Shown here in pieces: positions 3,124-18,345 of a stretch of DNA of 40,545 nucleotides (its first letter is position 1; every line of letters begins with the position of its first letter). Source of the DNA: Acidimicrobiales bacterium (lineage in GTDB: Bacteria > Actinomycetota > Acidimicrobiia > Acidimicrobiales > Aldehydirespiratoraceae); contig JAKMFW010000048.1 in NCBI GenBank assembly GCA_022425325.1, forward strand, positions 1-40,545, written 5' to 3'. Under the pieces are notes generated by a model. That model had not been told where the DNA came from. It worked only from the letters and a program-made list of their open reading frames with translations, and did not search any database. The position numbers and the translations under genes are program-made.

Positions 3124-3129
3124 GGCCAG

Positions 3130-3139: not shown

Positions 3140-3145
3140 GCAGTC

Positions 3146-3493
3146 ATGGATCGAGTCGTACCCGCCGTCCTTGCCGGCGGTGCCGCCGGTGCAGCAGGTC
3201 GGTGGGCGATCGGTGAGTTCGGCTGGTCGTCCGCCACGACCCTGCTGGTGGTCAACACCATCGGCTGTTTCGCGCTGGGAATCGTCATTGCGGCCCTTCC
3301 CGAGCGCGAGCATCCGATCCGCTTGGCCTTGGGGGTCGGTGTGTGCGGTGGCCTCACGACCTTCTCGGGGCTCGCCGTCGACCTCGCCGTGCGACTCGAC
3401 GCAGGCGATGTCGGCGAGGCAGTGGCGATGGGGGTGCTCAGCCTTGGGCTCGGCCTGGTCGCGTTTCTCGGTGGGCGGACGGTGCCGGCGTGA
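3146..3493 (+). CDS. crcB1: Fluoride channel subunit CrcB (first copy)
   Basis: This 115-aa four-helix membrane protein belongs to the Fluc/CrcB family, which exports fluoride as dimers. Family motifs are visible: GGAAGAAGRW near the N-terminus, NTIGCFALGI in the second helix, and GGLTTFSGL around the channel break. I chose the ATG at 3146 because TACGGT sits at exactly the leaderless spacing. An upstream in-frame ATG at 3122 would add 8 residues and overlap the pdxH start codon. The second copy begins inside this gene's stop codon. Two unequal adjacent copies usually form a heterodimer. No leader exists for a fluoride riboswitch. Confidence 0.9.
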   Translation: MDRVVPAVLAGGAAGAAGRWAIGEFGWSSATTLLVVNTIGCFALGIVIAALPEREHPIRLALGVGVCGGLTTFSGLAVDLAVRLDAGDVGEAVAMGVLSLGLGLVAFLGGRTVPA

Positions 3494-3813
3494 TCGCTGT
3501 GCTGTTCGTCATCACCGCCGCAGCCGGCACGCTGCTTCGCTGGCAGGCGTCGATGTCCGTGCCCATCCGGGCGATCGCGACGTTTGCCGTGAACATCGGT
3601 GGTGCGTTCGCGCTTGGACTGCTCTCCACCGCCAGCGCCGACTCGCAGCTCATCGGTGGCGTGGCGGGCATCGGGGCGCTCACGACCTTTTCGACATTCG
3701 TGGCCGAACTCTTCGAGATCCACCAGATCGACCGGGGGTGGGCGTGGCGCTACGGGGCCGCAACCTTCGTGTTCGGCGTGGCCGCAGCCTGGATCGGATT
3801 GACGCTCGCCTAG
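3490..3813 (+). CDS. crcB2: Fluoride channel subunit CrcB (second copy)
   Basis: This 107-aa CrcB-family protein starts at GTG 3490, which overlaps the TGA of the first copy (GTGA), so the two are translationally coupled. Motifs AAGTLLRW, FAVNIGGAFALG and GALTTFSTF match the family, and four hydrophobic helices are evident. The sequence is clearly different from the first copy, which suggests an obligate antiparallel heterodimer rather than a dual-topology homodimer. That is inference. The stop codon TAG shares the palindrome CTAG (3810–3813) with the stop of the convergent dehydratase gene. Confidence 0.9.
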   Translation: MIAVLFVITAAAGTLLRWQASMSVPIRAIATFAVNIGGAFALGLLSTASADSQLIGGVAGIGALTTFSTFVAELFEIHQIDRGWAWRYGAATFVFGVAAAWIGLTLA

Positions 3814-4778
3814 CGGTTGGCCATCGCCAACATCGCCTCGAGCGACGTTGCACCGACGTTGGCACCACAGCTGACGGCGACGACACGAGTACCGGGGTTC
3901 GTGTCGGCGAACTGTGTGGCGGCCGCAAGCGCCACCCCGGCAGCCCCCTCGACCAGATGGTGATGATCGTCGATCATCGAGGCAACCGCCCGAGCGATCT
4001 CGAGTTCGCTGATGTCGACCCACCTGTCGACGAGCGCACGACAGATGTCGAACGTGATCGTGTCGTCCTCGAGCCCTCCGGCCGTGCCATCAGAGAACGT
4101 CGGCTCGAAGTGCGGGGTGATGATCTCGCCGGCATCGATCGACGCAGCCATCGCCCGATCGTTCGCCGCTGACGCACCGATCACGAGCGTCGAGGGCGAC
4201 GATGCCTTGACCCATGTCGCGATACCGGAGATGAGTCCGCCACCGCCGACCGACACCACCACAGCATCGGGGGTCGCGCCGTCCTCGAGGATTTCTTTCC
4301 CGATCGTTCCCTGCCCGGCAATGATGCGCGGGTCGTTGTACGGGGAGACGTAGGTGATGCCTCGCTCCTCGGCAGCTCGTCGCGCCGCCATCTCGGCACG
4401 GCTGGTATCGGTGCCCTCCACGAGCACGATCTCCGCGCCAAGGCGACGGATCTGCGAGATCTTCGACGGAGCGGCGGCCTCCGGAAGATAGATCGTGCAC
4501 GCAAAGCCCCGGCTGGCCGCTGCGGTAGCGACACCAATGCCGTGGTTGCCTGACGACGCAGTGATCACCCCTTCAACCGCAAGGTCGGGGGACAACGAGT
4601 GCACCACATTGGCCGAACCTCGAACCTTGAAACTGCCCGTTCGCTGCAGGTGCTCGCACTTGATGGCGATGTCGGCCCCGTGCCGCTCCGACAGCGGGTC
4701 CGAGGTCAGCAGTGGGGTGCGCAGGACATGCGGCTCGATGCGGTTCGCCGCCTCGTCGATGGTCGTGGGATCGATCAC
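3810..4778 (-). CDS. Threonine/hydroxyaspartate dehydratase-family PLP enzyme
   Basis: This 322-aa fold-type II PLP enzyme belongs to the threonine dehydratase/serine racemase family. Lys51 in GSFKVRGSAN should hold PLP. SGNHG(IGVATAA) and the glycine loop SVGGGGLISG bind substrate and phosphate. There is no C-terminal ACT regulatory domain, so it is not the biosynthetic IlvA type. The GTG start at 4778 has GGAGG 6 nt upstream and overlaps the stop of the ornithine-cyclodeaminase-family gene (GTGA). A longer frame to 4838 would run far into that gene and was rejected. Dehydratase plus cyclodeaminase-family pairs are known as EutB/EutC (hydroxyectoine use) and BhcB/BhcD (beta-hydroxyaspartate cycle). 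Simple threonine or serine deamination is the alternative. Confidence 0.85.
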   Translation of the reverse strand: MIDPTTIDEAANRIEPHVLRTPLLTSDPLSERHGADIAIKCEHLQRTGSFKVRGSANVVHSLSPDLAVEGVITASSGNHGIGVATAAASRGFACTIYLPEAAAPSKISQIRRLGAEIVLVEGTDTSRAEMAARRAAEERGITYVSPYNDPRIIAGQGTIGKEILEDGATPDAVVVSVGGGGLISGIATWVKASSPSTLVIGASAANDRAMAASIDAGEIITPHFEPTFSDGTAGGLEDDTITFDICRALVDRWVDISELEIARAVASMIDDHHHLVEGAAGVALAAATQFADTNPGTRVVAVSCGANVGATSLEAMLAMANR

Positions 4779-5674
4779 GATGTTCCTCCGGTCATCACAA
4801 GTTGGGCCATGGCGGCGTCCTGGATGCCGAGACCACAATGATCAGAGACGCTGATCTGTTTGTCCGAGGCGCGGCCCGGCGAACGGCCGGTCAGGACATC
4901 GCCGAGATTCACCGCCCGTTCGGCAGCCTCGGCGAGATGGGCGAGCTCGCCGACACGACCCGCGATCGACACATCGTCGGCAACGAGCAGGTCGGCGCCG
5001 AGCAGCACATCATCGGCCAGCTCTCGTTTGCCCAGGAGGTCGGATCCCATAGCGATGACGTGGGTGCCGGGCGAGAGCATCTCGAACGTGACCAAGGGTT
5101 CACGGCTCGGTGTACAGCAGATCACGATGTCCGCGCCGCGCACCGCCTCGACAACCGTGTCGGCAGCGACGGCGTCATGCTCTGCGGCAAACCTCTGTCG
5201 GGTCTCCGGACTGCGACTCCAGACGGTGACCGACTCGATGCCGAGGGCCTCGCGCAGCGCGGCAACCTGAAACGCAGCCTGAAAACCACCGCCGAGAATC
5301 GTCAGCGTGCGGGAGTCGGGCCGAGCGAGTGCCCGGGCACTCACCGCAGACGCTGCCGCAGTGCGGATCTCCGTGAGCCAGCCACCATCGTCGAGAATTG
5401 CAGCCGGCGCACCGGTGGCGGCGTCGAGGACCGCCGTGAAGCCGGAGTTGCCGCCTTCAGGGAACGCACCTGCGGCGGCCTTGAAGGCGAGATACGGCCC
5501 ACCGAGATGGGCCCCTTTCACGTGGAGTTCGCCTCCGTTGGCGAGGTGCATGGCGAACTCGTCGGGTGCCACGACGTCACCGTCGGCCAGGGCGCAGAAC
5601 GCATCGTGCACGGCACCTCGCGCAGCAGCGAGGCTCACCCGCGAGCGAACGGTGTCGGCATCCAGGACCTTCAT
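4775..5674 (-). CDS. Ornithine cyclodeaminase / imine reductase-family protein
   Basis: This 299-aa protein belongs to the ornithine cyclodeaminase/mu-crystallin family, which includes alanine dehydrogenases and iminosuccinate reductases. A substrate-binding N-terminal half (FKAAAG, GFTAVLDAATGAP, EIRTAAASAVS) is followed by a Rossmann nucleotide site, ILGGGFQAAFQ. GTHVIAMGSD lies further on. The ATG at 5674 has CATACT exactly 6 nt upstream, predicting a leaderless mRNA, so an upstream ATG at 5773 was rejected. It overlaps the dehydratase gene by 4 nt, so the two enzymes probably act together. In the BhcB/BhcD pairing this protein would reduce iminosuccinate to aspartate. Specificity cannot be read from the sequence alone. 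Confidence 0.83.
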   Translation of the reverse strand: MKVLDADTVRSRVSLAAARGAVHDAFCALADGDVVAPDEFAMHLANGGELHVKGAHLGGPYLAFKAAAGAFPEGGNSGFTAVLDAATGAPAAILDDGGWLTEIRTAAASAVSARALARPDSRTLTILGGGFQAAFQVAALREALGIESVTVWSRSPETRQRFAAEHDAVAADTVVEAVRGADIVICCTPSREPLVTFEMLSPGTHVIAMGSDLLGKRELADDVLLGADLLVADDVSIAGRVGELAHLAEAAERAVNLGDVLTGRSPGRASDKQISVSDHCGLGIQDAAMAQLVMTGGTS

Positions 5675-5680
5675 CGGCCC

Positions 5681-5686
5681 AGTATG
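5681..5686 (-). promoter_or_regulatory. Leaderless -10 box of the cyclodeaminase-family gene
   Basis: The minus strand reads CATACT, a one-base variant of TATACT, ending 6 nt before the ATG at 5674. It overlaps the end region of the upstream methyltransferase gene. Confidence 0.5.
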
Positions 5687-5690
5687 TCGC

Positions 5691-6323
5691 TCACGCCCGC
5701 TGCACCGCAGCCCAGAGACCCGACCCGGCACGACCGGCTGTCGCAGTCCATGAGCCCGGCAGTGCGTCGACAACCGCTTCTGGGCTCAGGTGGATCGGAG
5801 TCTCGTGCCCGAGCGTGTTGATCCAAAGCAGGCCACCGCCCGGGCGCAGGACCCGATCCACCTCCGCCGGGAAGAGCAACATGTTCACGAGGACGAGGAG
5901 ATCAGCTGCGTCGTCGCGAAAGGGCAGCATCGAGGCATCGGCCTGCACCTTCGGAGCGAGGTCCGGCTGATGGTGCAGCATCGCCATCGACAGATCGAGA
6001 GCGACGACGTCGTCGAACCGCTCAATGAGATGCCCGGTGCCGAGGCCGGTGCCCGAGCCGAGCTCGATCACCCTGTCGCCTGCGAGCCCGCCACGATCGA
6101 GCGCGTCGAGGATCGAGGCCTCACGCTCCGGGGCCGCGCGACTCGACCACTCGGCGGCCATGCCGTCGAAGAGTTCTCGAACCTTCTCGCGACGCGAGAA
6201 ATCCCACGCCGCATCGAAGGCGACCGTCTCGGTCACCTCACGCATCGGCGACACCGAGCCGAAGACAGGCAGGTCGGTGACCGTGCCCTCCGCATCGGGA
6301 AGCCAGGTCACCGATCCCGGCAT
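5691..6323 (-). CDS. Class I SAM-dependent methyltransferase
   Basis: This 210-aa protein has a Rossmann-type methyltransferase fold. Motif I is VIELGSGTGLGTG (about residues 86–98), the acidic post-I residue is in VVALDLS, the motif II-like region is ADASMLPFRDD, and DRVLRPGGGLLWI follows. About 80 residues precede motif I. The substrate is not recognisable. The ATG shares one base with the stop of serS (TGATG), so translation is coupled to serS. A 16-nt gap with its own promoter separates it from the next gene. The link to seryl-tRNA synthetase may be only operonic. Confidence 0.8.
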   Translation of the reverse strand: MPGSVTWLPDAEGTVTDLPVFGSVSPMREVTETVAFDAAWDFSRREKVRELFDGMAAEWSSRAAPEREASILDALDRGGLAGDRVIELGSGTGLGTGHLIERFDDVVALDLSMAMLHHQPDLAPKVQADASMLPFRDDAADLLVLVNMLLFPAEVDRVLRPGGGLLWINTLGHETPIHLSPEAVVDALPGSWTATAGRAGSGLWAAVQRA

Positions 6324-7612
6324 CAGGCCGGAACCGGAATCTCGGTGACGCCACCCATGTACGGCCGCAGCGCTTCAGGAATCTTCACTGAGCCGTCGGG
6401 TTGCCGGTAGGTCTCGACGATGCCCGCCCAGACCCGCGGCACGGCGAGGCCCGACCCGTTCAGCGAGTGCACGAACTGGGTGCCCTTCTCGCCCTCAGGC
6501 CGGTACCGGATGTTGGCCCGCCGGGCCTGATAGTCGGTGCACCAGCTGACAGAACTGACCTCGAGCCAACGGTCGGCGCCCGGCGCAAACACCTCGATGT
6601 CGTAGGTACGAGCACCGGCGCCGCTGATGTCGCCGCACGCAAGGTCGAGCACGCGATGGGCGAGGCCGAGGTCACGGATCGCGTTCTCAGCCCGCTCGAG
6701 GATCTCCATGTGCATCGCCTGCGCCTGATCGGGCGTGCAGAACGCGTAGAGCTCGACCTTGTCAAACTCGTGGACGCGCAGCAGGCCCCGGGTGTCGCGG
6801 CCGGCCGACCCGGCCTCGCGGCGGTAGCAACTGGTGTGGGCCATGAGCCGCATCGGCAACTCGGACTCGTCGAGCACCTCGCCGGCGACCATCGACGTGA
6901 GCGGCACCTCGGCCGTGGGAATCGCCCAGAGGTCATCTCGTTCGAGGTGGTACGCGTCATCGCTGAACTTCGGAAGATGGCCGGTGCCGATCATCGTGTC
7001 GGTCTTCACGACCGTCGGCGGGCGAATCTGCTCGAAGGCGTCGCGATTGCGATCGAGCCCGTAATTGATAAGCGCGCTCAAGAGATGCGCACCGGCGCCC
7101 CGATACATGGCGAACATCGAACCAGACATCTTCACCGCGCGATCGACATCGAGAATGCCGAGTTGTTCACCGACCTCCCAATGGGGGACCTTCTGATGTT
7201 CGGCATAGCCATCCGGATCGTGGCCTTCGACGCGCACGACGATGTTGTCGTCTTCGGTAAGGCCGTCAGGGGCGTCCGGGGCCGGCATGTTCGCAATGTG
7301 GAGCAGCTGCTGGCGAAGGGCGGCCTGGAGTTCGTCGGCCTCGGCGGCCAGCGACTTCTCCCGCTCGCCGAGCGCCTTGCTCTCGTCTTGCAGCGCGCTC
7401 GCCTCATCGCCCTTGCCGTCGCGATGCAGCGCCCCGACCTCTTTCGACAGGGCATTGACCCGGCTCCGGATGTCGTCGCGTTCGGTACCGACCGCCCGAA
7501 CACTGGCATCGAGTTCGACCGCACGATCGATCCCCGAGGTGTCATCGCCTCGGCGAGCGATCGCCGCTTTCACGGCGTCCGGGTCGGTGCGCAGCAGCTT
7601 GATGTCGAGCAT
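6323..7612 (-). CDS. serS: Seryl-tRNA synthetase
   Basis: This 429-aa class II synthetase charges tRNA-Ser. The N-terminal 30–105 region is the helical-hairpin tRNA-binding arm rich in heptads. Class II motif 2 is seen in CYRREAGSAGRDTRGL with the following HEFDKVELY. Motif 3 corresponds to the GSGLAVPR region near the C-terminus. WEVGEQLGILD and the serine-site TAEVPLTSM are also typical. The ATG at 7612 begins MLDIKLLRTDP, the usual start of bacterial SerRS. TACCGT lies exactly 6 nt upstream, which supports a leaderless transcript. A longer frame upstream is not conserved and was rejected. Confidence 0.97.
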   Translation of the reverse strand: MLDIKLLRTDPDAVKAAIARRGDDTSGIDRAVELDASVRAVGTERDDIRSRVNALSKEVGALHRDGKGDEASALQDESKALGEREKSLAAEADELQAALRQQLLHIANMPAPDAPDGLTEDDNIVVRVEGHDPDGYAEHQKVPHWEVGEQLGILDVDRAVKMSGSMFAMYRGAGAHLLSALINYGLDRNRDAFEQIRPPTVVKTDTMIGTGHLPKFSDDAYHLERDDLWAIPTAEVPLTSMVAGEVLDESELPMRLMAHTSCYRREAGSAGRDTRGLLRVHEFDKVELYAFCTPDQAQAMHMEILERAENAIRDLGLAHRVLDLACGDISGAGARTYDIEVFAPGADRWLEVSSVSWCTDYQARRANIRYRPEGEKGTQFVHSLNGSGLAVPRVWAGIVETYRQPDGSVKIPEALRPYMGGVTEIPVPA

Positions 7613-8097: not shown

Positions 8098-8997
8098 CTA
8101 ACGAGGCTCGACGGGCGGCTCACCGGCGTCGGCGAACCGCTGCTCGACGTCGTCAAACGTGAGCCGCCGGTTATGACGGTCACGCCGGGCCTGCTCTTCG
8201 GCTCGTGCGTTGTTCGCAGCGAGACGGAAGAAGCGAACGGCGATGATCGTCCAGAGGTAGAAACCACCGATGACCTTCATGACCGCACCTGCGGCCTGCT
8301 GGTCTTCAACCGGCGAGATGCCCCACAGCGCATCGTCGGTCTCGTAGGCCTCGTAGACGACGCCCTCAGCAAAGGTCAGCCAACCGGCCGGCACCGTGGG
8401 AACAATCGACATGAGGAAGAGGTAGAGCATCTTCCCGGGCTCGCCCATCTGGAGTTCCTTGAGCGGGCCAACGACTGGGAACCACATGAGCAACGCCGAC
8501 GCGAACACCAGCAGGTGAATCGTGTAATGGAACGGGCCGTTGTCCGACGACAGATTCACCACGGCGCCCCAGTGGGTAAGGATCTGTAGCGCGTTGAAGA
8601 TGGTGCCTGCAACGATCGGCTTGGTGAGCACCCGCAGAATCCGCTGGGGCGTGCCGTCGTCAAGAACGACGAGGCGGGCCAGCCACGCCGGCATCGCCAA
8701 CAGGAGCAATGGCGGAATGATGAAGCTGATCAGCAGGTGCTGCAGCATGTGAACGAAGTACAGGTGCTCCTCAGCGATGTCGTGCATCGGCCAGTCGGCG
8801 GCGAGCCACAACATGGCCACACCGACAATGAAGAACCGCTTCTGGCTGACCGTGGTGACCGGCTCCCCTGCCGGCACCGCGAGTGGTCCGATGTTTCGAA
8901 CCGAATAGACCCCCAAGCCGATGATCGCAGCCACCAGCAACCACACTTCCGGGTGGAACTCGTAGTCCCACGCGCTCGCAGCGAGTAGGGAGGTCAT
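8098..8997 (-). CDS. ctaG: Cytochrome c oxidase assembly factor CtaG (caa3 type)
   Basis: This 299-aa polytopic membrane protein belongs to the caa3_CtaG family, needed to form active caa3 oxidase and thought to help insert CuA/CuB copper. About seven hydrophobic helices are seen. The family's histidine-rich segment DWPMHDIAEEH...FVHMLQHLL is at about 69–90, a good candidate copper-binding site. The C-terminus is a charged cytoplasmic-looking tail. It is the last gene of the oxidase operon, 4 nt after ctaF. It is unrelated to Cox11, despite the shared name. Confidence 0.9.
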   Translation of the reverse strand: MTSLLAASAWDYEFHPEVWLLVAAIIGLGVYSVRNIGPLAVPAGEPVTTVSQKRFFIVGVAMLWLAADWPMHDIAEEHLYFVHMLQHLLISFIIPPLLLLAMPAWLARLVVLDDGTPQRILRVLTKPIVAGTIFNALQILTHWGAVVNLSSDNGPFHYTIHLLVFASALLMWFPVVGPLKELQMGEPGKMLYLFLMSIVPTVPAGWLTFAEGVVYEAYETDDALWGISPVEDQQAAGAVMKVIGGFYLWTIIAVRFFRLAANNARAEEQARRDRHNRRLTFDDVEQRFADAGEPPVEPR

Positions 8998-9001
8998 GGC
9001 G

Positions 9002-9343
9002 TTATCCGAACACGTTGAACGCCAAGAGGGTCACGATGTACACCGCCGTGGCGAGGAGCACCCCGGCGAAGAAGGACTGCTGCAGAACCGGCTTGTCCTG
9101 CTTCAGGTGCATGAACACCCGGGCAACCAGCCAGCCCTTAAAGATCATCATCGTGAACAACGACGTGAGCAGGATCCAGCGAGTCTCGAAGAAGGTGAAG
9201 ACCGACTCGAAGTAGGTCGCAACCTCGGCCGCGGTGACCACGGCAAGGATGATGGCGACCTTGACGTACTCCCAGTCGGAGGGGTGATGATCGTCGTGGG
9301 CCTCGTCGCGGGTCTCGACGGCCACTTCGGTGGTTTCGCTCAT
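9002..9343 (-). CDS. ctaF: Cytochrome c oxidase subunit IV (prokaryotic type)
   Basis: This 113-aa protein has three hydrophobic helices, of the COX4_pro/CtaF type. The N-terminus carries the acidic/histidine patch EAHDDHHPSD before WEYVKVAIILAVVTAAEV. The second and third helices include LLTSLFTMMIFKGWLVA and FAGVLLATAVYIVTLLA. I chose ATG 9343, which has GGAG 8 nt upstream. A GTG three codons earlier overlaps the ctaE stop but leaves no space for the RBS. It sits between ctaE and ctaG and is likely a small structural or assembly subunit. CtaD also has a two-helix C-terminal extension, so the complex has both. Confidence 0.85.
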   Translation of the reverse strand: MSETTEVAVETRDEAHDDHHPSDWEYVKVAIILAVVTAAEVATYFESVFTFFETRWILLTSLFTMMIFKGWLVARVFMHLKQDKPVLQQSFFAGVLLATAVYIVTLLAFNVFG

Positions 9344-9348
9344 GTCGC

Positions 9349-9972
9349 TCACTCCGGCGGGATCAGGTAGATGACGGTGAAGATGAAGATCCAGACGAGA
9401 TCGACGAAGTGCCAGTAGAGGCCGACGATCTCGACGGTCTCGCTGTTCTTGCCGGTCAGCTTGCCTTGGTTGGCAGCGACCCATAGCGACATCAGCATGA
9501 TGATGCCGATGCTCACGTGGGCCCCGTGGAATCCGGTGAGGGTGTAGAAGGCTGACGCCGCCGGGTTGGTGGTGTAGCCGAGGCCCTCCTCGTAGAAGGC
9601 GGTGAACTCGTAGGCCTGGCCACCCATGAAGACGGCACCGAGCATGGCTGTGACAAGCAGCCACGCCTTGCCCCGGTCGAGGTCGTTGCGACCAAACGCC
9701 GAGAGGGCGAGCACCATCGTGAGCGAGCTCATGAGGAGCACGAACGACGAGACCGACGTGAACGGGATATCGAACAGATCGGTCGGCAGGACCTCACCAT
9801 TGCCCCGCGTCTTGTAGATCAGGTAGGTCGAGATGAGCGCACCGAACAGCAGACACTCCGTCGACAAGAACAGCCACATCGCCAACTTGTTGTTGGAGAT
9901 GCCCGTGTTCGTGGCGTGGGGATCGTGGGCGTCGTGATGGGTATCGGTGGCCGGGGCCGTTGCGGTCGCCAT
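9349..9972 (-). CDS. ctaE: Cytochrome c oxidase subunit III
   Basis: This 207-aa, roughly five-helix subunit III has the conserved signatures: LAMWLFLSTECLLFG at the N-terminal helix, the glutamate in GGQAYEF, the TGFHGAHVSIG motif, and the C-terminal GLYWHFVDLVWIF. The N-terminus has a histidine/aspartate cluster, DTHHDAHDPH. Its ATG shares a base with the stop of ctaD (TGATG), so translation is coupled. It stabilises subunit I and proton uptake in the oxidase. A degenerate paralogue that has lost the GFHGAHV motif is encoded upstream at 14012–14602. Confidence 0.95.
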   Translation of the reverse strand: MATATAPATDTHHDAHDPHATNTGISNNKLAMWLFLSTECLLFGALISTYLIYKTRGNGEVLPTDLFDIPFTSVSSFVLLMSSLTMVLALSAFGRNDLDRGKAWLLVTAMLGAVFMGGQAYEFTAFYEEGLGYTTNPAASAFYTLTGFHGAHVSIGIIMLMSLWVAANQGKLTGKNSETVEIVGLYWHFVDLVWIFIFTVIYLIPPE

Positions 9973-11978
9973 CAGCCCTCTCCCTCTGTGTGGTCGCCGG
10001 CGGCGCCGACCGTGGCGAGTTCGCCATCGGGGTCGTCACCGTCGTGGTGGTCGTCGTGGCCGTGGCCGTCGGCGTCCGGATCATCGACCGGCTCCAACAC
10101 CCAGGCGTAGATGGCGCCGCCGGTGAGCAGGCCGCCCACCACACAGAGCCACAGGTTGAAGATGACGCCGTAGCCGATGAGCGGCAGGCCGATGGCCAGC
10201 ACAAGTGGCCAGAACGACGGCGACGGGAGGTGCACGCCGACGGCGTCGCCCTTCTGCGCCGCGTCCTCTGCAGAGGAGATACGAACGACCGAGCCGTCGT
10301 CTTCGATGTTGTACTTGCGGAACCACCAGTCGTCCTGCGACTCGACAACCGGGATCTCGTCGAAGTTGTGTTCCGGAGTCGGCGACGGGATCGACCACTC
10401 GAGGCTGCGGGCATCCCACGGATCGGGACCGGGGGCCGGCAGGTTCGGAGCTTCCTTCTTGGACTTGTAGACGTTCCAGAGGAAGAACAGCACCGACGCA
10501 CCGAGAATGTAGGAGCCGATCGTGGCGACGAGGTTCCAGAACTCGAAACCGAAGCCCGACGAATAGGTGTTGATGCGGCGGCTCATGCCCTGCAGGCCGA
10601 GCACGTGCATCGGGCCGAACGTCAGGTTGAAGCCGATGAGCATGGTCCAGAAGTGGATCTTGCCGCGGCGCTCGTCGAGGAGATGACCGAACACCTTCGG
10701 CCACCAGAAGTACACACCGGCGAACAGGCCGAGGACACCGCCGCCGAAGATCACATAGTGGAAGTGCGCAACGATGTAGTAGGTGTCGGTCTGCTGGGTG
10801 TCAGCCGGGGCGAGTGAGTGGGTGACACCCGACAGGCCGCCGATGGTGAACATCGTGACGGTGCCGACGGCGAACAGCATCGCCGTGGAGAAGTTGAGCT
10901 TGCCGCCCCACATCGTGGCGAGCCAGTTCAGGATCTTCACACCGGTTGGCACCGCGATGAACATCGTCGCCATCGAGAAGGCGAAGACCGAGATCGGACC
11001 GATGCCGGACACGAACATGTGGTGGGCCCACACGCCCCAGCCCATGAAACCGATCGCAATGCCGGAGAACACCATGAACGAGTACCCGAAAATGGGCTTC
11101 CGGCTAAACGCCGGGATCACCTCGGAGATGATGCCGAAACTCGGGAGGATGATGATGTACACCTCGGGGTGACCAAAGATCCAGAAGAGGTGCTGCCATA
11201 GCAACGGGTCGGCGCCTGCTTCAGGGTCGAAGAATTGCGAGTCGAACTGGCGGTCGAACAGCAGCAACAGAAGCGCCACGGTGATGACCGGCAGGGCGAA
11301 GGCCAACAAGAACTGCGTGACCAGGAGCATCCAGGTCAACACCGGCATGCGGAACAGACTCATGCCCGGAGCCCGCATGTTGAGACACGTCACCGCCAGG
11401 TTGACCGCCGACACCAACGAGGCGATACCGGTGATCAACAGGCCGATGACGTAGAAGTCGACACCGTTGGTCGGCGAGAAGGTGATGCCGCTGTTGGGTG
11501 AGTAGCAGAACCAACCACAGTCGGCGCCGCCGCCGCCGACGATCCACGACGTGTTCAGGAAAATCGCTCCGGAGAGCCAGACCCAGAACGAGAGCGCGTT
11601 CAGGCGAGGGAAGGCGACATCGCGGGCGCCGATCTGCAACGGGATCAGATAGTTGGCGAACGCTGCCGCAGACGGCATGACAAACAAGAAGATCATCGTG
11701 ACGCCGTGCATCGTGAAGATCTGGTTGTAGACATCGGCGCTCAGGAAACCGCTCTCCGGGAAGGCCAGCTGGGTGCGGATAAGCAGCGCTTCAAGGCCAC
11801 CGAGAAGGAAGAAGAACATCGCGGCAACGCCGTACATGATGCCGATCTTCTTGTGGTCGACCGTGCTGACCCAGTCCTTCCAACTGCCGTTGGCCTGGGG
11901 TCGGGTCAGGACGCCGAGCGGCCGCTCTGCGTGCTGCTCACCACTGGTGAGGGCAAGAGGTTCTTCGATGATCGCCAT
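9972..11978 (-). CDS. ctaD: Cytochrome c oxidase subunit I
   Basis: This 668-aa catalytic subunit has all metal ligands: H91 and H407 for haem a, H405 for haem a3, and H270, H319 and H320 for CuB. Tyr274 (in GHPEVY) can form the His-Tyr cross-link. Glu272 of the same motif, Asp120 (GARD) and Lys348 (TGVKILNW) give D- and K-channel residues, so it is an A1-type proton-pumping oxidase. After the twelve-helix core comes a soluble segment (DPWDARSLEWS...), two further helices (about 600–640), and a tail rich in His and Asp (GHGHDDHHDGDD). It starts 3 nt after ctaC with GGAG in front. The same operon encodes a paralogue lacking every ligand. Confidence 0.97.
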   Translation of the reverse strand: MAIIEEPLALTSGEQHAERPLGVLTRPQANGSWKDWVSTVDHKKIGIMYGVAAMFFFLLGGLEALLIRTQLAFPESGFLSADVYNQIFTMHGVTMIFLFVMPSAAAFANYLIPLQIGARDVAFPRLNALSFWVWLSGAIFLNTSWIVGGGGADCGWFCYSPNSGITFSPTNGVDFYVIGLLITGIASLVSAVNLAVTCLNMRAPGMSLFRMPVLTWMLLVTQFLLAFALPVITVALLLLLFDRQFDSQFFDPEAGADPLLWQHLFWIFGHPEVYIIILPSFGIISEVIPAFSRKPIFGYSFMVFSGIAIGFMGWGVWAHHMFVSGIGPISVFAFSMATMFIAVPTGVKILNWLATMWGGKLNFSTAMLFAVGTVTMFTIGGLSGVTHSLAPADTQQTDTYYIVAHFHYVIFGGGVLGLFAGVYFWWPKVFGHLLDERRGKIHFWTMLIGFNLTFGPMHVLGLQGMSRRINTYSSGFGFEFWNLVATIGSYILGASVLFFLWNVYKSKKEAPNLPAPGPDPWDARSLEWSIPSPTPEHNFDEIPVVESQDDWWFRKYNIEDDGSVVRISSAEDAAQKGDAVGVHLPSPSFWPLVLAIGLPLIGYGVIFNLWLCVVGGLLTGGAIYAWVLEPVDDPDADGHGHDDHHDGDDPDGELATVGAAGDHTEGEG

Positions 11979-11981
11979 GGC

Positions 11982-13208
11982 TCACTCCACCTCCGTCGCC
12001 GCCAGGATCTCGGCCGACGGCTTCTGGCCGAGGGTTTCGAGATAGGCGACGAGATCGCTAATCGTTCGTTCGGACAGACCCAGATTGGGCATGCCTCGGG
12101 GCAATTCACCATCGGGAAGCCCGTTGGCGTAGTTCTCCTTCACGACTTCGGGGGCTCGCAGCCACTGCGAGATGTCGTCGCGGTTCCACTCGCCATCCTC
12201 GGTGTAGGTGTTGAGGATGCCGCCGGCGAAAGTCGTGCGGCTGGCGAAATGGGTGAGGTTCGGCGCGGCCTGCGAGACCACGGCAGCGGCGATGTCCTCA
12301 TCGCCATTGAAACCCTCGACCAGGTGGCACGAGGAGCAGTTGGCGAGGAATGCCGTAGCGCCGCGCGAGACGGGATCGTCGGGATCCTCCGGCGGCGCAC
12401 TCTGCGGAACCATCTGCTCATCGATCCAGTTCTGGAAGTCGGCATCGTCCATCGCAATGGTCTGCATCCGCATCTTCGCATGCGACAGGCCACAGAACTC
12501 GGTGCACTGACCGAAGTAGACGCCAGGCTCATCGGCGGAGATCTCCCACGGAGCAAAGAAGCCCGGGCGGGCGTCGCGCTTGCCGTTGAGCGCTGGGATC
12601 CAGAACGAGTGGATTACGTCACGGGACGTGACGAGCAGCTCGACCTCTTGACCGGTCGGGATCACCATCTGTCCGGCCGTCACGATGTCGGCCGGCGGAA
12701 GGTTGCGGGGATCGTCGAGGAAGTCGGCATCGACGTCCTCGGTGAAGTAGTAGCGGAACTCCCACCACCACTGCTGGCCGACCACGACGATCTTCGGCTC
12801 CCAACTGGTCGAGTCGCCCTCGACCTCGACCTCATAGGCGTTGGCCTCGGTCTCGTTGAGGGAGAAGTGCGCCACGGTGGTGAGCACGGCCACGACGACC
12901 ATGATGATCGCCGGGACGATGGTCCAGCCGATCTCCAGGGTGTTGTTGTGCGAAATCTGCTCAGGGAATTCGTCGTCGCCGTCGTAGCTCTTCACCCGCT
13001 GCTTCTTCGCCATGTAGACCACGGCGCCAAGCACGAGGACGCCGATCACCCCGGCGATGACCAGCACCCGGTCGAGCAAGGTGTCGATGTCGCGGGCGTT
13101 GTCGCTCTGCGGCTGCAGCGTGTCGAGTTCGGCGTCGCCGGCGCAGCCGGCTGTGATCAGGCCGATCAGGGCAACAGCGCCCAAAAGGCGCGTGCGGGAA
13201 TCACTCAC
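11982..13208 (-). CDS. ctaC: Cytochrome c oxidase subunit II with fused cytochrome c
   Basis: This 408-aa lipoprotein accepts electrons for the oxidase. The lipobox ends ITAGC with Cys22. Two membrane helices follow (about 47–66 and 95–113). The CuA domain has H200 and the C235-E237-C239-H243-M246 ligand set. A class I cytochrome c domain is fused at the C-terminus, with CSSCH at 291–295 and probable Met373. This fusion defines a caa3-type enzyme. The GTG at 13208 lies 6 nt after GGGAG and overlaps the previous gene's stop by 8 nt. A longer upstream frame was rejected because it runs into that gene. CcdA and thioredoxin at 235–1913 could serve its haem attachment. Confidence 0.95.
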   Translation of the reverse strand: MSDSRTRLLGAVALIGLITAGCAGDAELDTLQPQSDNARDIDTLLDRVLVIAGVIGVLVLGAVVYMAKKQRVKSYDGDDEFPEQISHNNTLEIGWTIVPAIIMVVVAVLTTVAHFSLNETEANAYEVEVEGDSTSWEPKIVVVGQQWWWEFRYYFTEDVDADFLDDPRNLPPADIVTAGQMVIPTGQEVELLVTSRDVIHSFWIPALNGKRDARPGFFAPWEISADEPGVYFGQCTEFCGLSHAKMRMQTIAMDDADFQNWIDEQMVPQSAPPEDPDDPVSRGATAFLANCSSCHLVEGFNGDEDIAAAVVSQAAPNLTHFASRTTFAGGILNTYTEDGEWNRDDISQWLRAPEVVKENYANGLPDGELPRGMPNLGLSERTISDLVAYLETLGQKPSAEILAATEVE

Positions 13209-14004
13209 TGGCTTCTCCCTCTTCCGAATGGTCTTCACCGTGCTCCTCACCATGGTCGTCACCGTGATGTTCAAAGTCGCGCTGACCGTCGACTGCGGTG
13301 ACGATGCCACCGGCGATGACGGCGACGCCGACCGCAAGCACGAGGCCTGCGATGACGTTCTTGTTCATCTTGGGCCGGGCCGCATAGAGGATGCCCAGTC
13401 CGAAGATGATGACTGCGATCAAACCGGCCCAGACGACAGCGCCGAGCTTGGTTGCGTTCAGGAAGATCCGGCTGGCGGCGAGCGCCATGACTGCGACGCC
13501 GAGGGCGCCGGCGACGGGGATCTCGAAGGGTGCCATGATGCGATCGCGCAGGGCCTTGTTGGCCTCGGCGTCGCCGGTGGCGCGATCGGCCCAGGCGTCC
13601 ATGGTCCACTCGATCGCAACGAGGGAGCAGATCACCAGGCCGAGGACGAAGACGGCCGAGCCGAGCACGAGACCGAGCACCATCGCAGCGCCACCGAAGG
13701 CACCGATGACGGGCCAGAAGCTGCCCGTGACGGGCGTGGTCGGCGCAATGGCCTCGACGCCCATGTAGTGGGACTGGGCGGCCGGGTCGGCGTCGCGGAA
13801 GGCGACGATGATGCCCGCAAAGCAGGCGGACGCAAAGGCGCCACCGATGAGGACCAGGTAGCCGACATGGTCGCCCACGCCGCCCTTCCAGCCGAGCGTG
13901 ACCGGACCGACGTGCTCACCGCCAGTCGAGTACCCGTAGGCGACTGCGCCGATGGTGAGGGCGATGGTGAGTCCGAAGAAGAACTTGAAGCCCGTGGTGA
14001 ACAT
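13201..14004 (-). CDS. Unrecognised seven-helix membrane protein with His/Asp/Glu tail
   Basis: This is a 267-aa protein I cannot assign to a family. About seven hydrophobic segments are visible, near 5–24, 48–70, 95–113, 115–133, 165–185, 190–211 and 216–237. The soluble tail from about 244 is unusually rich in His, Asp and Glu (EHHGDDHGEEHGEDH), a plausible metal-binding patch. It lies inside the oxidase operon, between a degenerate subunit III and ctaC, and overlaps ctaC by 8 nt, so it should be made with the oxidase. The ATG at 14004 follows GGGATCAG. Upstream frame residues look antisense-like and were not used. Possible roles include a structural subunit, an assembly factor or copper handling. 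None is proven. Confidence 0.75.
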   Translation of the reverse strand: MFTTGFKFFFGLTIALTIGAVAYGYSTGGEHVGPVTLGWKGGVGDHVGYLVLIGGAFASACFAGIIVAFRDADPAAQSHYMGVEAIAPTTPVTGSFWPVIGAFGGAAMVLGLVLGSAVFVLGLVICSLVAIEWTMDAWADRATGDAEANKALRDRIMAPFEIPVAGALGVAVMALAASRIFLNATKLGAVVWAGLIAVIIFGLGILYAARPKMNKNVIAGLVLAVGVAVIAGGIVTAVDGQRDFEHHGDDHGEEHGEDHSEEGEASE

Positions 14005-14011
14005 CTGATCC

Positions 14012-14602
14012 CTACTTGGTGACGAAGATGGCGATCCAGGTGACCCAGTACATGACGGAGACCGCATGCCAGAACATGGCAGCAGCGGCGACGCCGTCGT
14101 CCTGGGAAGGACCGAACTGACCGAACAGTGCCCGCATCGTGGTGAGGGCGAGGAAGACGACCGCACCGATCAAGAAGACGATGTAGGTGCCGGTCATGAC
14201 AAAGAACAGGAACTGGCCTTGGGTGCCGGCCAGCGCGAACCCGGTGTCGTTGATGATGAACCAAAGCTGGTTGAACACCGCCGCCCCGAACATGCCGGTG
14301 AGCGCAAGTGCGATGTAGGCGTTGGGGCGGTCGTCGTTGCGGATTGCCTGCACAGCCCACTGGACCGTGAAGGCGGCGAGCACGAGGGTCCAGAAGATCC
14401 AGCCCGACGGGCCGAGTTCGATGACACCCTCCGGGAACCATTCCTCTCCGGCGTCACGGGCGTCGGCCCGCTCGCTGACATAGACGGCGAGCACGCCGAA
14501 GTAGGTCATGAGGGCGGCGCCGCTGGCGAACATGGTGCCGACGAGCACCGTGCGGGGCCGGCGGATTGCGGGAGCGGCGAGCTGGGTGGTGGTGGCGGTC
14601 AT
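14012..14602 (-). CDS. Degenerate cytochrome oxidase subunit III paralogue
   Basis: This 196-aa, five-helix protein aligns with subunit III in length, helix order and the C-terminal FWHAVSVMYWVTW (YWHFVDLVWIF in CtaE). Diagnostic residues are lost. The TGFHGAHVSIG motif reads TGTYIVFLIGA, and the conserved glutamate region GGQAYEF reads NQLWFII. The ATG shares a base with the stop of the subunit I paralogue (TGATG), so the two are co-translated. It is therefore probably the partner of the ligand-less subunit I rather than a second working subunit III. The frame is intact and codon use is like its neighbours, so it is not a pseudogene in the mutational sense. Confidence 0.78.
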   Translation of the reverse strand: MTATTTQLAAPAIRRPRTVLVGTMFASGAALMTYFGVLAVYVSERADARDAGEEWFPEGVIELGPSGWIFWTLVLAAFTVQWAVQAIRNDDRPNAYIALALTGMFGAAVFNQLWFIINDTGFALAGTQGQFLFFVMTGTYIVFLIGAVVFLALTTMRALFGQFGPSQDDGVAAAAMFWHAVSVMYWVTWIAIFVTK

Positions 14603-16236
14603 CAGGACTCCCCTCCCTCGTCGCCGGGCGTCTCGTCAAGCAGCGGTGCCTCCGAGCGGACTCGGGCGGGCGGCTCGGCGAAGTTGCCGGCGGGCGGCGG
14701 CGTGGCGGTGGCCCACTCGAGGGTGTGGCCGCCCCACGGGTCGTCGTCGGCCTCGCCCGGCTTGACGTAGGCCAGGGCGATCGCACCGAGTGCGCCGAGG
14801 ACGCCGAGCAGCACGACGATCGAGCCGACCATCGACAGGACGATCATGGCGTCGCCGAGGCTGTCGTCAGCAGACGCCAGCAGCACGTCGGGGGTGTCGA
14901 CGAACCCGGCGATCATGTCGGTGGCACCGAGCAGGACACCACCGAGCAAGAGAACGGTCATGGCGCCAAGCCCCTGGATCCCGGAGAAGAGGCGACCGTC
15001 GGTCTTCGGGGCCCAGAACCACCAGCCGCCGAGCGCTCCGAGAATGGCGGCGACCGCAACGAGGTTGAGCACACCGGTATCGGCGGTGGTGCCGATGAGG
15101 TCGAGTGGGTCGATGACGCGCAGCGCGCCAGCGGCGGTGGCGGCCAAGAAGAGCAGCATTGAGCCGAGCGCACCGACCATGTGGGCGGGCGGAATGCCAA
15201 CCGGCGCTTCGCCGGCGACGAGCGTGGCGCCGTTGCCGCCGAGCGAGGCGAGCACGGGAACGAGGGCAGCAACACCGAAGGCGATGTACACCAGCGTGTC
15301 GCGCTCATCGCCGAAGAACGGCTGCGACCAGCCGCCGATGGCGAGCAGGCCGGCAAGGCCGATGAGGATCATCATCGCCTCGTGGCTGACCTGGCGGCCC
15401 TTGGCGACGACCGGGATGATCGAGCCGGCGACACCGAGAACAGGAACGGCGGCGGCGTACACGGCGGGCTGGTCGAGAATCCATGCCAGCTGGGCGTACA
15501 CGTCGAAGCTGGGGTTGGGTGCGCCGACGAAGAGGCCGGCGCCGCCGGAGAGGTCGATGTAGAGGATCGCGATGTTGGCGATGGCGACCGGGAGGGTGAG
15601 GACCCAGACACTGCCGGCGACGAGCATCGACCAGGCGAACAGCGGGACCTTGGTGAGACCCATGCCCGAGGTGCGCAACGACACCACGGTGGTGGCGACA
15701 CAGATGGTGCCGAGGATGATCGACACCATCACCATGCCGGTGCCGAGGAGGGTGAGTCGGATGGCGTCGGCTTCGTCGCCCGAAACGCCGTCGAGCGCAC
15801 CCCAGCCACCACCGGAGAGAACCGAGATGACGGTGATCAGCGAGCCGAGCACATAGCCCCACGCCGCAGCGAGCGCCGCTCGGGGGAAGGCGATGTTGGT
15901 GCTGCCGACCTGCATCGGGGTGATGACGGTGGCGAGACCGACGAACAGCGGGATTGCGACCATCAGCACGATGCCGAAGCGATACAGCGACCACATCTGG
16001 AAGTAGCTGTTCACCCCGCCGAACACGTCGATCGCATCGGCATCAAGCCGCTCGAAAGAGATCAGGACACCGATCACGGAGAAGAAGAGGAGCGACAGGG
16101 CGCCGAAGCGCAGCCAGATTCGGCCAATCGCCTTGTGATCGCTGGTGGTCAGCCAGTCGTACAGTCCGCCGACCGCGGGAAGCGGCGCAGCACTGGACTC
16201 GGCCGCCTCCGAAGGCGGTGACTCAGTCATCGTCAT
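14602..16236 (-). CDS. Ligand-less paralogue of cytochrome oxidase subunit I
   Basis: This 544-aa polytopic protein aligns with CtaD from the N-terminus (DWLTTSDHKAIGRIW against DWVSTVDHKKIGIMY) through QVGSTNIAFPR, LRTSGMGLTKVPLFAW and WWFWAPKTDGR to the C-terminal DPWGGHTLEW...NFAEPP. All six haem/copper histidines are replaced: Y85, Q256, Q305, P306, G388 and L390 stand where CtaD has H91, H270, H319, H320, H405 and H407. The D- and E-channel residues are N114 and A258. The cross-link tyrosine is kept (Y260). It cannot be a working oxidase. The intact frame, first place in the operon and coupled neighbours argue for a retained structural or assembly role. Confidence 0.85.
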   Translation of the reverse strand: MTMTESPPSEAAESSAAPLPAVGGLYDWLTTSDHKAIGRIWLRFGALSLLFFSVIGVLISFERLDADAIDVFGGVNSYFQMWSLYRFGIVLMVAIPLFVGLATVITPMQVGSTNIAFPRAALAAAWGYVLGSLITVISVLSGGGWGALDGVSGDEADAIRLTLLGTGMVMVSIILGTICVATTVVSLRTSGMGLTKVPLFAWSMLVAGSVWVLTLPVAIANIAILYIDLSGGAGLFVGAPNPSFDVYAQLAWILDQPAVYAAAVPVLGVAGSIIPVVAKGRQVSHEAMMILIGLAGLLAIGGWSQPFFGDERDTLVYIAFGVAALVPVLASLGGNGATLVAGEAPVGIPPAHMVGALGSMLLFLAATAAGALRVIDPLDLIGTTADTGVLNLVAVAAILGALGGWWFWAPKTDGRLFSGIQGLGAMTVLLLGGVLLGATDMIAGFVDTPDVLLASADDSLGDAMIVLSMVGSIVVLLGVLGALGAIALAYVKPGEADDDPWGGHTLEWATATPPPAGNFAEPPARVRSEAPLLDETPGDEGGES

Positions 16237-16380
16237 GGGTTCTGCAATCCTCTACGGCGAGGGCCCCTGCCCTCATCGCTGAAATGTTTTTGGCGCGCGT
16301 CCGGACAGCTCGGACACGAACCCGGCAGAGCCTATAGGTGTCCGCCGCCCGGAGCGGAAACCCAGCGCAAGGAAATGCGA

Positions 16381-16411
16381 CGCGATCTCGCGCCGTTTGG
16401 CGCGATCTCGC
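16381..16411. repeat. Direct repeat CGCGATCTCGC, 20-nt period
   Basis: CGCGATCTCGC occurs at 16381–16391 and again at 16401–16411. Between and within the copies CGCGCC (16389–16394) can pair with GGCGCG (16399–16404) around GTTT. The spacing of about two helical turns suits a protein binding on one face of DNA. It lies upstream of the oxidase operon and downstream of ctaB. Confidence 0.5.
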
Positions 16412-16425
16412 TCCTTTTTGCGCAA

Positions 16426-16441
16426 CCCGAACCGGTTCGGG
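16426..16441. promoter_or_regulatory. 16-bp perfect palindrome, candidate operator
   Basis: CCCGAACCGGTTCGGG reads the same on both strands. It lies 27 nt past the ctaB stop and about 190 nt before the oxidase operon. With no loop it is better suited to binding a dimeric protein than to being a terminator, and no U-tract follows in either direction. Confidence 0.4.
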
Positions 16442-16467
16442 GTCGGATGAACGGCCGCGGCGCCTGC

Positions 16468-17364
16468 CTAGAGGCCGTTTCGCACCATGACATCGACCGC
16501 CATGGCGCCGAAAAGCAGGGTCACATAGGTGATCGACCAACCGAAGAGCGCCATCGCCAGTTTCGGTTGCGGATCTCGGTACACCTTCACCGCGAGGCCG
16601 AGGAACACGGCGCCGGTGACAATGGCGACGCCGACATAGATGGCCCCCATGTCAGCGACCGGAGCGAACGCAAGCGTCAGACCCCACAGCAACACGGTGT
16701 AGAGGATGATGCGCGTGGCGGTGGTCCTGAGCGATTTCACCGCCGGCAGCATCGGCACGTCGGCTGCCTGGTAATCGTCTCGGTAGCGAATCGCCAGGGC
16801 CCAGAAGTGCGGTGGGGTCCAGTAGAAGATAATGGCGAAGAGCACGACCGGCGGCCAGTCAAGCGTGTTGGTGACCGCCGACCAGCCCACGAGCACGGGC
16901 ACCGCCCCAGCCGCACCGCCGATGACGATGTTGGCCGTGGAGTTGCGCTTCAGCCAGAGGCTGTACACGAAGACGTAGAACAGGGTGGCACTGACGGCGA
17001 GGCAAGCCGACAACAGGTTGACGGTGGCCAACAGCCACAGGAAGGCGACGATCTCGACACCGAAGGCGAACACGAGCGCTTGGCGCGGCGTGACCTCACC
17101 GGTGACGAGCGGGCGATCCTTGGTGCGCTCCATCAGTGCATCGATGTCACGATCGATGTACATGTTGAAGGCGTGGGCGCCGCCGGCGGCGAGCGTGCCG
17201 CCGAAGACCGTGGCGAAGATCAACCACAGCGATGGCAGGCCGCCCTCGGCGACGATCATGGTCGGCACCGTGGTGACGAGCAGCAACTCGACGATCCGCA
17301 GTTTCATCAGGGCGATGAACGCAAGGATCTTCGGGCGCGTCGGCGCGTGGGCGGTTGCGGACAC
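16468..17364 (-). CDS. ctaB: Protohaem IX farnesyltransferase (haem O synthase)
   Basis: This 298-aa UbiA-family membrane enzyme attaches a farnesyl group to haem B to make haem O, the precursor of haem A for the caa3 oxidase. The first Asp-rich motif, NMYIDRDIDALMERTKDRPL, is at about 67–86. The second conserved loop, YRDDYQAADVPMLP, is at about 193–206, and KRNS and the WTPPHFWALA signature lie between. About nine helices are evident. The GTG start at 17364 has TAGCCT exactly 6 nt upstream, predicting a leaderless transcript. It is divergent from ctaA, which performs the next step. Confidence 0.96.
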   Translation of the reverse strand: MSATAHAPTRPKILAFIALMKLRIVELLLVTTVPTMIVAEGGLPSLWLIFATVFGGTLAAGGAHAFNMYIDRDIDALMERTKDRPLVTGEVTPRQALVFAFGVEIVAFLWLLATVNLLSACLAVSATLFYVFVYSLWLKRNSTANIVIGGAAGAVPVLVGWSAVTNTLDWPPVVLFAIIFYWTPPHFWALAIRYRDDYQAADVPMLPAVKSLRTTATRIILYTVLLWGLTLAFAPVADMGAIYVGVAIVTGAVFLGLAVKVYRDPQPKLAMALFGWSITYVTLLFGAMAVDVMVRNGL

Positions 17365-17370
17365 GCCCTC

Positions 17371-17414
17371 AGGCTACGGCCGCTGAGGCAACTCCAACCA
17401 GCTGGCCCTAACGT
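17371..17414. promoter_or_regulatory. Divergent leaderless promoters of ctaB and ctaA
   Basis: The minus strand reads TAGCCT (17376–17371), 6 nt before the ctaB GTG. The plus strand reads TAACGT (17409–17414), 7 nt before the ctaA ATG at 17422. The 32 nt between the boxes is the only room for shared control of haem A synthesis. Confidence 0.6.
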
Positions 17415-17421
17415 CTTGGGC

Positions 17422-18345
17422 ATGTTCCGTGGTGCGATTTCGCCCGAGCGCTACGTCCAGCTCGCCCGAGGCGCACTCTGGTCTCTGACTGTCATCGTGA
17501 TCACCGGGGCGGCCGTCCGACTCACCGGTTCCGGCCTCGGCTGCTCAGACTGGCCGACCTGCGAAGAGGACCAGCTCGTCGCTTCGCTTGAACACCACGC
17601 GCTCATCGAATTCGGGAACCGTCTCTTCACCGGGGTCGTCACGATCGCCGTGGTGCTCGCCGTCCTCGGGTCGATTCGCCGCGGCCCGAAACGACGCGAC
17701 CTGATCTGGTGGTCATGGGGACTCGTCGCCGGCGTGGTCGCCCAGATCCTGCTCGGGGCGATGCTCGTGCTCACCCACCTCGATCCGCGTTTCACGATGG
17801 GGCACTTCATCTTGTCGATGGTGCTGTTGTGGAACGCGGCGGTGCTGATCGAGAAGGCCAAGACCGATATCGCCAACCCGGCACCGCTCTGGATGGGCGC
17901 ACCGTCGGATCACGACCGTCCGATCCGCAACGCGAGCCGCACCCTCTTCGTCTTCGGCTCAATCCTGCTCGTCACCGGCACGATCGTCACCGGGTCGGGC
18001 CCGCACTCCGGCAGTGACGACGAACTCGTCGCCGACCGCCTCCCGTTCCTTGTCCGAGACGTGACTCGCATTCACTCGATCACGGCGTTCACGGTGCTCG
18101 CCGTGGTGCTGGTGATCATCCGCCGAGCCCATCAGGCCGAGAAGTTCGCGTTGCGTGAGCAAGCGATGCGGCTCATGACCCTGCTGGTCGCTCAAGGCGC
18201 AGTCGGCTACTGGCAGTACTTCACCGGCGTTCCGGTCCAGCTCGTGGCGGTCCACATCACCCTCGCCTCGATCACCTGGATCCAGCTCGTGCGCCTTGCG
18301 TGGCAGGTCGAACAGGTGCCGGCGCGCGATCGTGTTCTCGTATGA
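17422..18345 (+). CDS. ctaA: Haem A synthase
   Basis: This 307-aa, eight-helix membrane enzyme oxidises the C8 methyl of haem O to a formyl group, giving haem A for the oxidase. The conserved loop TGSGLGCSDWPTC carries Cys41 and Cys47. Glu63 lies in IEFGNR, where Bacillus CtaA has a Glu-x-x-His-Arg arrangement. The two histidines just before it (H58, H59) may replace that ligand. Other conserved histidines are in LTHLDPRFTMGHF, RIHSITAF and VAVHITLA. The ATG at 17422 fits the leaderless -10. A much longer upstream frame is antisense to ctaB and was rejected. The stop overlaps the clpS start (ATGA). Confidence 0.94.
   Translation: MFRGAISPERYVQLARGALWSLTVIVITGAAVRLTGSGLGCSDWPTCEEDQLVASLEHHALIEFGNRLFTGVVTIAVVLAVLGSIRRGPKRRDLIWWSWGLVAGVVAQILLGAMLVLTHLDPRFTMGHFILSMVLLWNAAVLIEKAKTDIANPAPLWMGAPSDHDRPIRNASRTLFVFGSILLVTGTIVTGSGPHSGSDDELVADRLPFLVRDVTRIHSITAFTVLAVVLVIIRRAHQAEKFALREQAMRLMTLLVAQGAVGYWQYFTGVPVQLVAVHITLASITWIQLVRLAWQVEQVPARDRVLV

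Follow-up and report, generated by a model that had tools for sequence, protein, structure and literature searches.

Few membrane enzymes have been studied as thoroughly as subunit I of cytochrome oxidase (COX1), the histidines of which are taken as diagnostic. In the window (the whole 40,545-nucleotide stretch of Acidimicrobiales DNA that was analysed) the genes for an active caa3 oxidase are accompanied by a second COX1-family gene, psD, the product of which carries no metal ligand. The locus raises a testable question: what benefit would a cytochrome oxidase draw from an inactive twin? The retention of such a copy suggests a partner for the oxidase, structural or in assembly, that is made from its own dead subunit I.

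Gene organization

The window comes from a genome of 2.6 Mb that is 95% complete. On the minus strand the gene order is ctaB, psD, psE, X, ctaC, ctaD, ctaE, a COX4_pro gene and ctaG; psD, psE and X are referred to together as the cassette.

16468..17364, minus strand: CtaB, haem O synthase, upstream of psD (UbiA family PF01040, 217 bits; named from context)
14602..16236, minus strand: pseudo-subunit I (psD), a COX1 paralogue without any metal ligand (PF00115, 113.1 bits; ligand columns YQQPVN)
14012..14602, minus strand: pseudo-subunit III (psE), a COX3 paralogue (PF00510, 35.6 bits; cut-off 23.8)
13201..14004, minus strand: X, subunit-IV (CtaF)-like, with a His/Asp/Glu-rich C-terminal tail (weak PF12270 in some relatives; fold model)
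11982..13208, minus strand: CtaC, active subunit II (CuA) with a fused cytochrome c (PF00116, PF02790, PF00034)
9972..11978, minus strand: CtaD, active subunit I with six ligand histidines (PF00115, 523 bits; TIGR02891, 690.7 bits, above the cut-off)
9349..9972, minus strand: CtaE, active subunit III (PF00510, 63 bits)
9002..9352, minus strand: small COX4_pro subunit, its GTG start deduced from the junction (PF03626, 30 bits on 9002..9349)
8098..8997, minus strand: CtaG (Caa3_CtaG), copper assembly protein (PF09678, 139.4 bits at 8218-8856)

A gap of 231 bases separates ctaB from psD. The ATG of psE overlaps the psD stop by one base (junction TGATG), and ctaC, with a GTG start deduced from the sequence of the junction, begins within the end of X. 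Start/stop overlaps are also found at ctaD/ctaE and ctaE/COX4, and these junctions suggest a set of genes that may be translationally coupled. Divergent from ctaB, the last part of a plus-strand open reading frame (16375-18345) resembles haem A synthase, CtaA, by eye.

Two COX1-family matches, psD and CtaD, are present in the genome, so that caa3 is the sole haem-copper oxidase detected and psD is not a spare oxidase. The genome also gave one match to a bc-type cytochrome b, read through one stop, and no match to cytochrome bd or SCO1. The C-terminal extension of CtaD (residues 579-629) matches the subunit IV family PF12270 with 27.1 bits versus 26.9, and part of subunit IV appears to be fused to active subunit I in the window.

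Ligand loss and predicted fold of psD

The psD protein has 544 residues and an ATG start. A sequence-only reading had proposed that it aligns over its full length with the CtaD encoded 2.6 kb downstream, and this is borne out (BLASTP, 23% identity over 553 columns); the motifs DHK, QVG..AFPR, SGM, FW.PK and DPW..LEW are likewise seen in the alignments. The match to PF00115 (2e-32, 113.1 bits, cut-off 34.8) spans profile positions 2-407 of 436. Against the NCBIfam model TIGR02891 (CtaD_CoxA), for which the cut-off is 670.75 bits, psD scores 193.3 and the CtaD of the window 690.7. The AlphaFold (AF2) model (pLDDT 92.4, pTM 0.93) is a confident COX1 fold with 12 main membrane helices, and a Foldseek comparison with the PDB returned COX1-type chains as the best matches (7q21_D, E 1.1e-21, TM 0.83). 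Superposed on 6adq_F, the model gives VIA Z 40.5 and an rmsd of 3.1 over 499 residues.

Relative to CtaD, the helix II histidine is replaced by Tyr, that of helix VI by Gln, the His-His pair of helix VII by Gln-Pro and the two histidines of helix X by Val and Asn. The low-spin haem pair (helices II and X) is therefore represented by Tyr and Asn, the haem a3 position by Val and the three CuB positions by Gln, Gln and Pro. The sequence-only reading had placed Gly and Leu at helix X; this is a register difference that leaves the conclusion of ligand loss unchanged, as no histidine stands at any ligand position. The proton channels are altered as well: the D-channel Asp is Asn and the residue equivalent to Glu286 is Ala, in agreement with what had been read for the D- and E-channel acids, and the K-channel Lys is Ser. 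With its catalytic residues gone, its predicted fold kept and purifying selection acting on its gene (see below), psD appears to be a pseudoenzyme.

The accompanying proteins psE and X

psE falls below the cut-off of the family NF050119 (E 3.8e-12, 46.8 bits, cut-off 190). X is harder to place. PF12270, the actinobacterial subunit IV family, matches four of 21 X relatives at E<=0.1 (best 0.0014) and does not match the X of the window. Modelled alone, X has seven long helices at medium confidence (pTM 0.52), and its fold matches are weak; the best two, at E 0.4 and 0.53, are to chains of 139 residues from mycobacterial bcc:aa3 supercomplexes, which we take to be CtaF. When an X profile is compared with genomes outside the order, its N-terminal half hits short frames as well as the ends of frames the size of CtaD, and its C-terminal half hits different frames, of about 220-610 residues. 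We term X subunit-IV-like because of the PF12270 matches in relatives, these N-half matches and the weak fold matches. Judged by the families represented, the cassette would mirror subunits I, III and IV, without subunit II.

A cupredoxin family, PF13473, was matched in five of the 21 X proteins, in some relatives within the C-terminal part; the X of the window has neither a cupredoxin profile match nor a type-1 copper motif. The tails of X vary widely among relatives. Those of L055, L135, L136 and L137 are long, similar to each other and without a copper motif; a degenerate cupredoxin, considered by eye for these four, found no support in the profile comparison (E of 1.7 or worse).

Distribution and conservation of the locus

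We searched for relatives at two levels. With the psD protein a match was obtained in 60 of 61 genomes, the source genome included and canonical CtaD counted; one genome of the same family as the window (G016) gave no match to psD in this search. The best psD matches share 58-99% identity within the genus and 39-61% within the family. X, the cleaner marker, gave hits at E<=1e-30 in 128 of the 198 genomes searched in the order, and these nearly always cover most of the profile (the match is partial in G037, G060 and G353); no match at this threshold was found in the other 70. In samples of 149 genomes from the class and 149 from the phylum, the X matches listed outside the order are weak and part-length, the best reaching 97 bits.

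From 80 fetched regions and the window we collected 77 second copies of subunit I; the regions were picked for hits, so that 77 is no measure of prevalence. Regions L070-L072 have no second copy, and in L139 X is present and no second copy was found. All 77 cassettes have ctaB in the fetched locus, 74 have ctaC and 65 a canonical CtaD; no CtaD was called in the other 12, of which ten extend less than 2.5 kb beyond X. The remaining two, L115 and L142, have an interval of about 4.7 kb between X and ctaC, and ctaC is near the end of the stretch. In L115 this interval (1357-6053) reads by eye like a zinc/manganese-type ABC importer with metal-binding protein, ATPase and permease. L068 (2422-2868, minus strand; genome G060) is an operon exception, with an X gene broken by a stop and no ctaC within 2.4 kb. 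Among the canonical CtaD rows, 66 of 70 show HHHHHH at the ligand columns; two rows end early and two others read HHTT-- and -RHHHH.

At close range the cassette genes are under purifying selection. Compared with L073 (99% identity) and L075 (96% identity), dN/dS is 0.045 and 0.100 for psD, 0.016 and 0.032 for psE, 0.038 and 0.071 for X, and 0.051 and 0.042 for CtaD. L074, which is without X, ctaC and ctaE, gives 0.086 for psD; L033 and L076 were set aside (dN/dS 0.143 across 489 codons, the identities exceeding 1, probably from masked bases). At longer range psD evolves much faster than CtaD: in L036, L037 and L042 it shares 57-62% identity, versus 83-88% for CtaD, with dN/dS of 0.28-0.45 versus 0.09-0.15 and dS near saturation. 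By these values psD is constrained, though less tightly than CtaD. The protein search of 61 genomes found no internal stop in any psD match above 154 bits. With dN/dS of 0.045 and 0.10, values not near 1, and relatives in genus, family and order, psD is not a decaying pseudogene, and the retained pseudo-enzyme proposed by the sequence-only reading stands, none of the three outcomes named there as refuting it having been observed. The retention of psD in these loci is in part built in, since they were picked for having the cassette.

The pattern of conservation is uneven. Measured against CtaD, conservation in the second copies is highest, with ratios of 0.50-0.75, in TM1-TM5, TM12, the C-terminal tail and loops 2-3, 4-5 and 10-11. 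The ratios drop to 0.34-0.44 for TM6-TM11 and are lowest, at 0.26-0.31, for loops 6-7, 7-8 and 11-12; the catalytic bundle (TM6-TM11) has decayed further. In established oxidase structures TM3-TM6 face subunit III, and subunit II lies close to TM8-TM9. Given these placements, the pattern agrees with an I'-III' contact that has been kept and with the loss of the catalytic and subunit-II side.

Loss of cofactor sites among the second copies

None of the 77 second copies has the helix VI CuB histidine or the K-channel Lys. The D-channel Asp is found in two, and a histidine at one helix VII position in two; no CuB site is present in any of the 77. The low-spin haem pair, by contrast, is kept in 21 copies and all three haem histidines in ten, and some of the haem-keeping copies, for example that of L057, show FGRPE where FGHPE would be expected. 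CuB and the K channel were seemingly lost first and the haem sites later, in several lines that have kept the protein.

A type-1 copper pattern at the end of X was recognized in 16 loci, 14 of which have the haem pair. This set is defined by the sequence pattern H..C..H..M and most of the 16 are known from the pattern alone; the Pfam family PF13473 confirmed it in the X proteins of L057 (44.5 bits) and L116 (34.2 bits; cut-off 27). Across the 77 loci, 14 have both haem pair and cupredoxin, seven the haem pair only, two the cupredoxin only and 54 neither (Fisher p 1.3e-8). A coupled loss of the two features was not supported by an independent-pairs test (four pairs, with the cupredoxin differing in none). 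We also discarded the idea that a fused cytochrome c replaced the cupredoxin: CtaC has CxxCH in 14 of the 16 cupredoxin-motif loci, and the two exceptions are L061, where CtaC is missing from the stretch, and L117, with a short CtaC at the stretch end.

One arrangement of this kind is that of L057, where a COX1 paralogue (3420-5048, plus strand) keeps the haem a and a3 ligands and has Arg in place of the helix VI CuB histidine; next to it (5635-6633, plus strand) lies a subunit-IV-like protein bearing a type-1 copper motif. L056, L058, L062, L130, L138, L143 and L144 are arranged similarly. Paralogue and copper-motif X together are possibly an uncharacterised redox complex.

In a tree of 118 rows built with a quick method, the second copies form one side of a branch (SH-aLRT 100) and sit on a long stem relative to the canonical CtaDs. 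In an outgroup-rooted CtaD tree, also quick and with several weak forks, the haem-and-cupredoxin forms lie at the first split. Dollo counting on that tree gives about eight losses of the haem pair in loci still holding the protein and one loss of the cupredoxin; the counts cover cassette-selected loci and exclude lines that lost the whole cassette. Parsimony allowing regain on an unrooted tree gives five changes for the haem pair. The second-copy tree, which includes loci absent from the CtaD tree, implies more than one cupredoxin loss, since the cupredoxin-less L069 and L118 are nested among cupredoxin-bearing rows. L122 has a very long branch; neither the rooted tree nor the covariation test described below includes it. 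We looked outside the order for a second-copy relative that still bears its ligands and found none among the 30 upper loci of the phylum scan, 27 of them outside the order, at which all 30 COX1 proteins had six histidines.

Proposed role of the cassette

Three functions had been offered for psD by the sequence-only reading, namely scaffold, docking partner or assembly platform. The place of psD in a set of three paralogous subunits (I', III' and the IV'-like X), the haem ligands and cupredoxin of relatives and the reach of the cassette go beyond that reading. The choice among them, and with it complex formation and the role of the module, is something we infer. The homology of psD to COX1, its loss of ligands and proton-channel residues, the close-range purifying selection, the wide occurrence in the order and the linkage to ctaB and ctaC are the observations to be accommodated. 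In this species, the sequences are best explained by a module that has no subunit II of its own and no redox function.

The reading that we prefer, with a probability of about 0.47, is that a non-catalytic I'-III'-IV' module acts as a structural protomer partnering the active caa3 oxidase. psD, psE and X would form a membrane module, and I'-III'-IV' would be a stoichiometric part of caa3, docked against the active I-II-III protomer to give a half-dead heterodimer or a supercomplex spacer. The value of the module would lie in the I'/III' surface, lipid packing and the cytoplasmic tails, not in chemistry. The overlapping genes and covarying distances point to such a stoichiometric partner of CtaCDE. 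Over 61 loci, distances covary with those of CtaD beyond what is shared with CtaB (partial r 0.75 for psD, 0.81 for psE and 0.84 for X, with 0.72 for CtaC-CtaD), perhaps as a shared-tree signal, the test having no unlinked control and all 12 pairs lying at the floor p of 0.002.

The trees suggest a history for the structural protomer. Copied oxidase subunits would first have lost CuB and proton pumping; early lineages would have retained the low-spin haem and a type-1 copper domain, and the cofactors would then have been lost stepwise. A bolder version, which we put forward tentatively and would sooner bet against, holds that much of the order has an asymmetric oxidase in which a live caa3 protomer is permanently joined to a dead I'-III'-IV' duplicate, the early-branching forms being a COX1-fold complex with haem a and without CuB, fed by a type-1 copper domain on the subunit-IV-like protein. 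If this is true, the lineage preserves the steps from an enzyme to a structural subunit.

An assembly role is the strongest competitor, unlikely in our estimate yet deserving of attention. I'-III'-X would be a transient scaffold for building CtaC and CtaD. The His-rich tail of X (in early lineages its cupredoxin) would deliver copper to CuA, and the COX1-like body would accept haem A or serve as a template for its insertion. ctaB accompanies all 77 cassettes, and SCO1, unmatched in the genome of the window, shows a matching trend in the order: Sco (SCO1, PF02630) is matched in 47 of the 128 cassette-bearing genomes versus 51 of the 70 others (Fisher p 1.5e-6, uncorrected for kinship). An assembly role would account equally well for the position beside ctaB and for Sco being less frequent in cassette genomes. 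The His/Asp/Glu-rich tail of X in the window points the same way, copper chaperones with His-rich tails being described in PMC9145763, as do the metal-importer-like genes between X and ctaC in L115. On the other hand, the window has a CtaG, 47 cassette genomes have Sco as well and the genomes without a cassette may simply rely on other oxidases. A full set of I', III' and IV' seems excessive for a chaperone, and the tails of X are highly variable among relatives.

A redox or sensing role for the cassette of the window, with a cofactor or ligand that it still binds (a quinone, haem via other residues or a metal on X), is improbable. Redox function is probable in some relatives, since ten of the 77 copies keep all three haem histidines, and 14 of the 21 with the low-spin pair are accompanied by a type-1 copper X. 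Within the family of the window, however, the pair is found in none of 21 rows, seven of which read YQQPVN, the X of the window has no copper motif and the D, E and K channel residues of psD are lost. That psD is a recent duplicate decaying without function is almost certainly wrong: all catalytic residues are lost and it evolves faster than CtaD, but the low dN/dS, the matches free of stops, the wide presence, the linkage to ctaB and ctaC and the confident fold already contradict it.

Comparison with known systems

psD shares with the catalytic A-family subunit I (CtaD/CoxA; PF00115, TIGR02891) its fold, the AFPR, GM and DPW..LEW motifs and its operon; it differs in having no ligands for haem a, haem a3 or CuB and no D or K channel. 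Among the actinobacterial CtaE and CtaF (PF00510, PF12270), psE is related to subunit III although it lies below the NF050119 cut-off, and the N-terminal half of X resembles subunit IV, whereas X also comprises further helices with a tail or cupredoxin and, in the window, has no PF12270 match. We know of no COX1 paralogue among the assembly factors Sco, PCuAC, CtaG and Surf1. With these factors (PMC9145763) the cassette shares a possible role and the gene neighbourhood.

FoxAB of the Fox cluster is described as the heme copper oxidase for O2 reduction (PMC10654088). In the sulfocyanin- or rusticyanin-linked oxidases of iron oxidisers and in the Fox cluster, a cupredoxin accompanies a COX1-type protein, and the haem-keeping cassettes share this feature; the second COX1 copy described here differs from the FoxAB oxidase in having no CuB (PMC10654088). 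The literature searched, from which most subscription journals and preprints were absent, yielded no dead partner copy of subunit I, and the available portions of PMC9145763, PMC8239418, PMC10654088 and PMC12008989 describe no such protein.

A long-conserved COX1 paralogue without ligand histidines shows that the presence of a COX1-family gene does not by itself imply an oxidase, and surveys that tally such genes would overcount the oxidases of these bacteria. The second copies also form a natural series of intermediates from a redox protein to an apparent scaffold. Dead paralogues that serve as partner subunits are a known principle; for COX1 no such paralogous partner is known to us. Parallels are offered by CydA/CydB and the D1/D2 proteins of the photosystem, with folds that differ from that of COX1, in which a paralogue keeps its fold, differs in its cofactors and stays in the complex.
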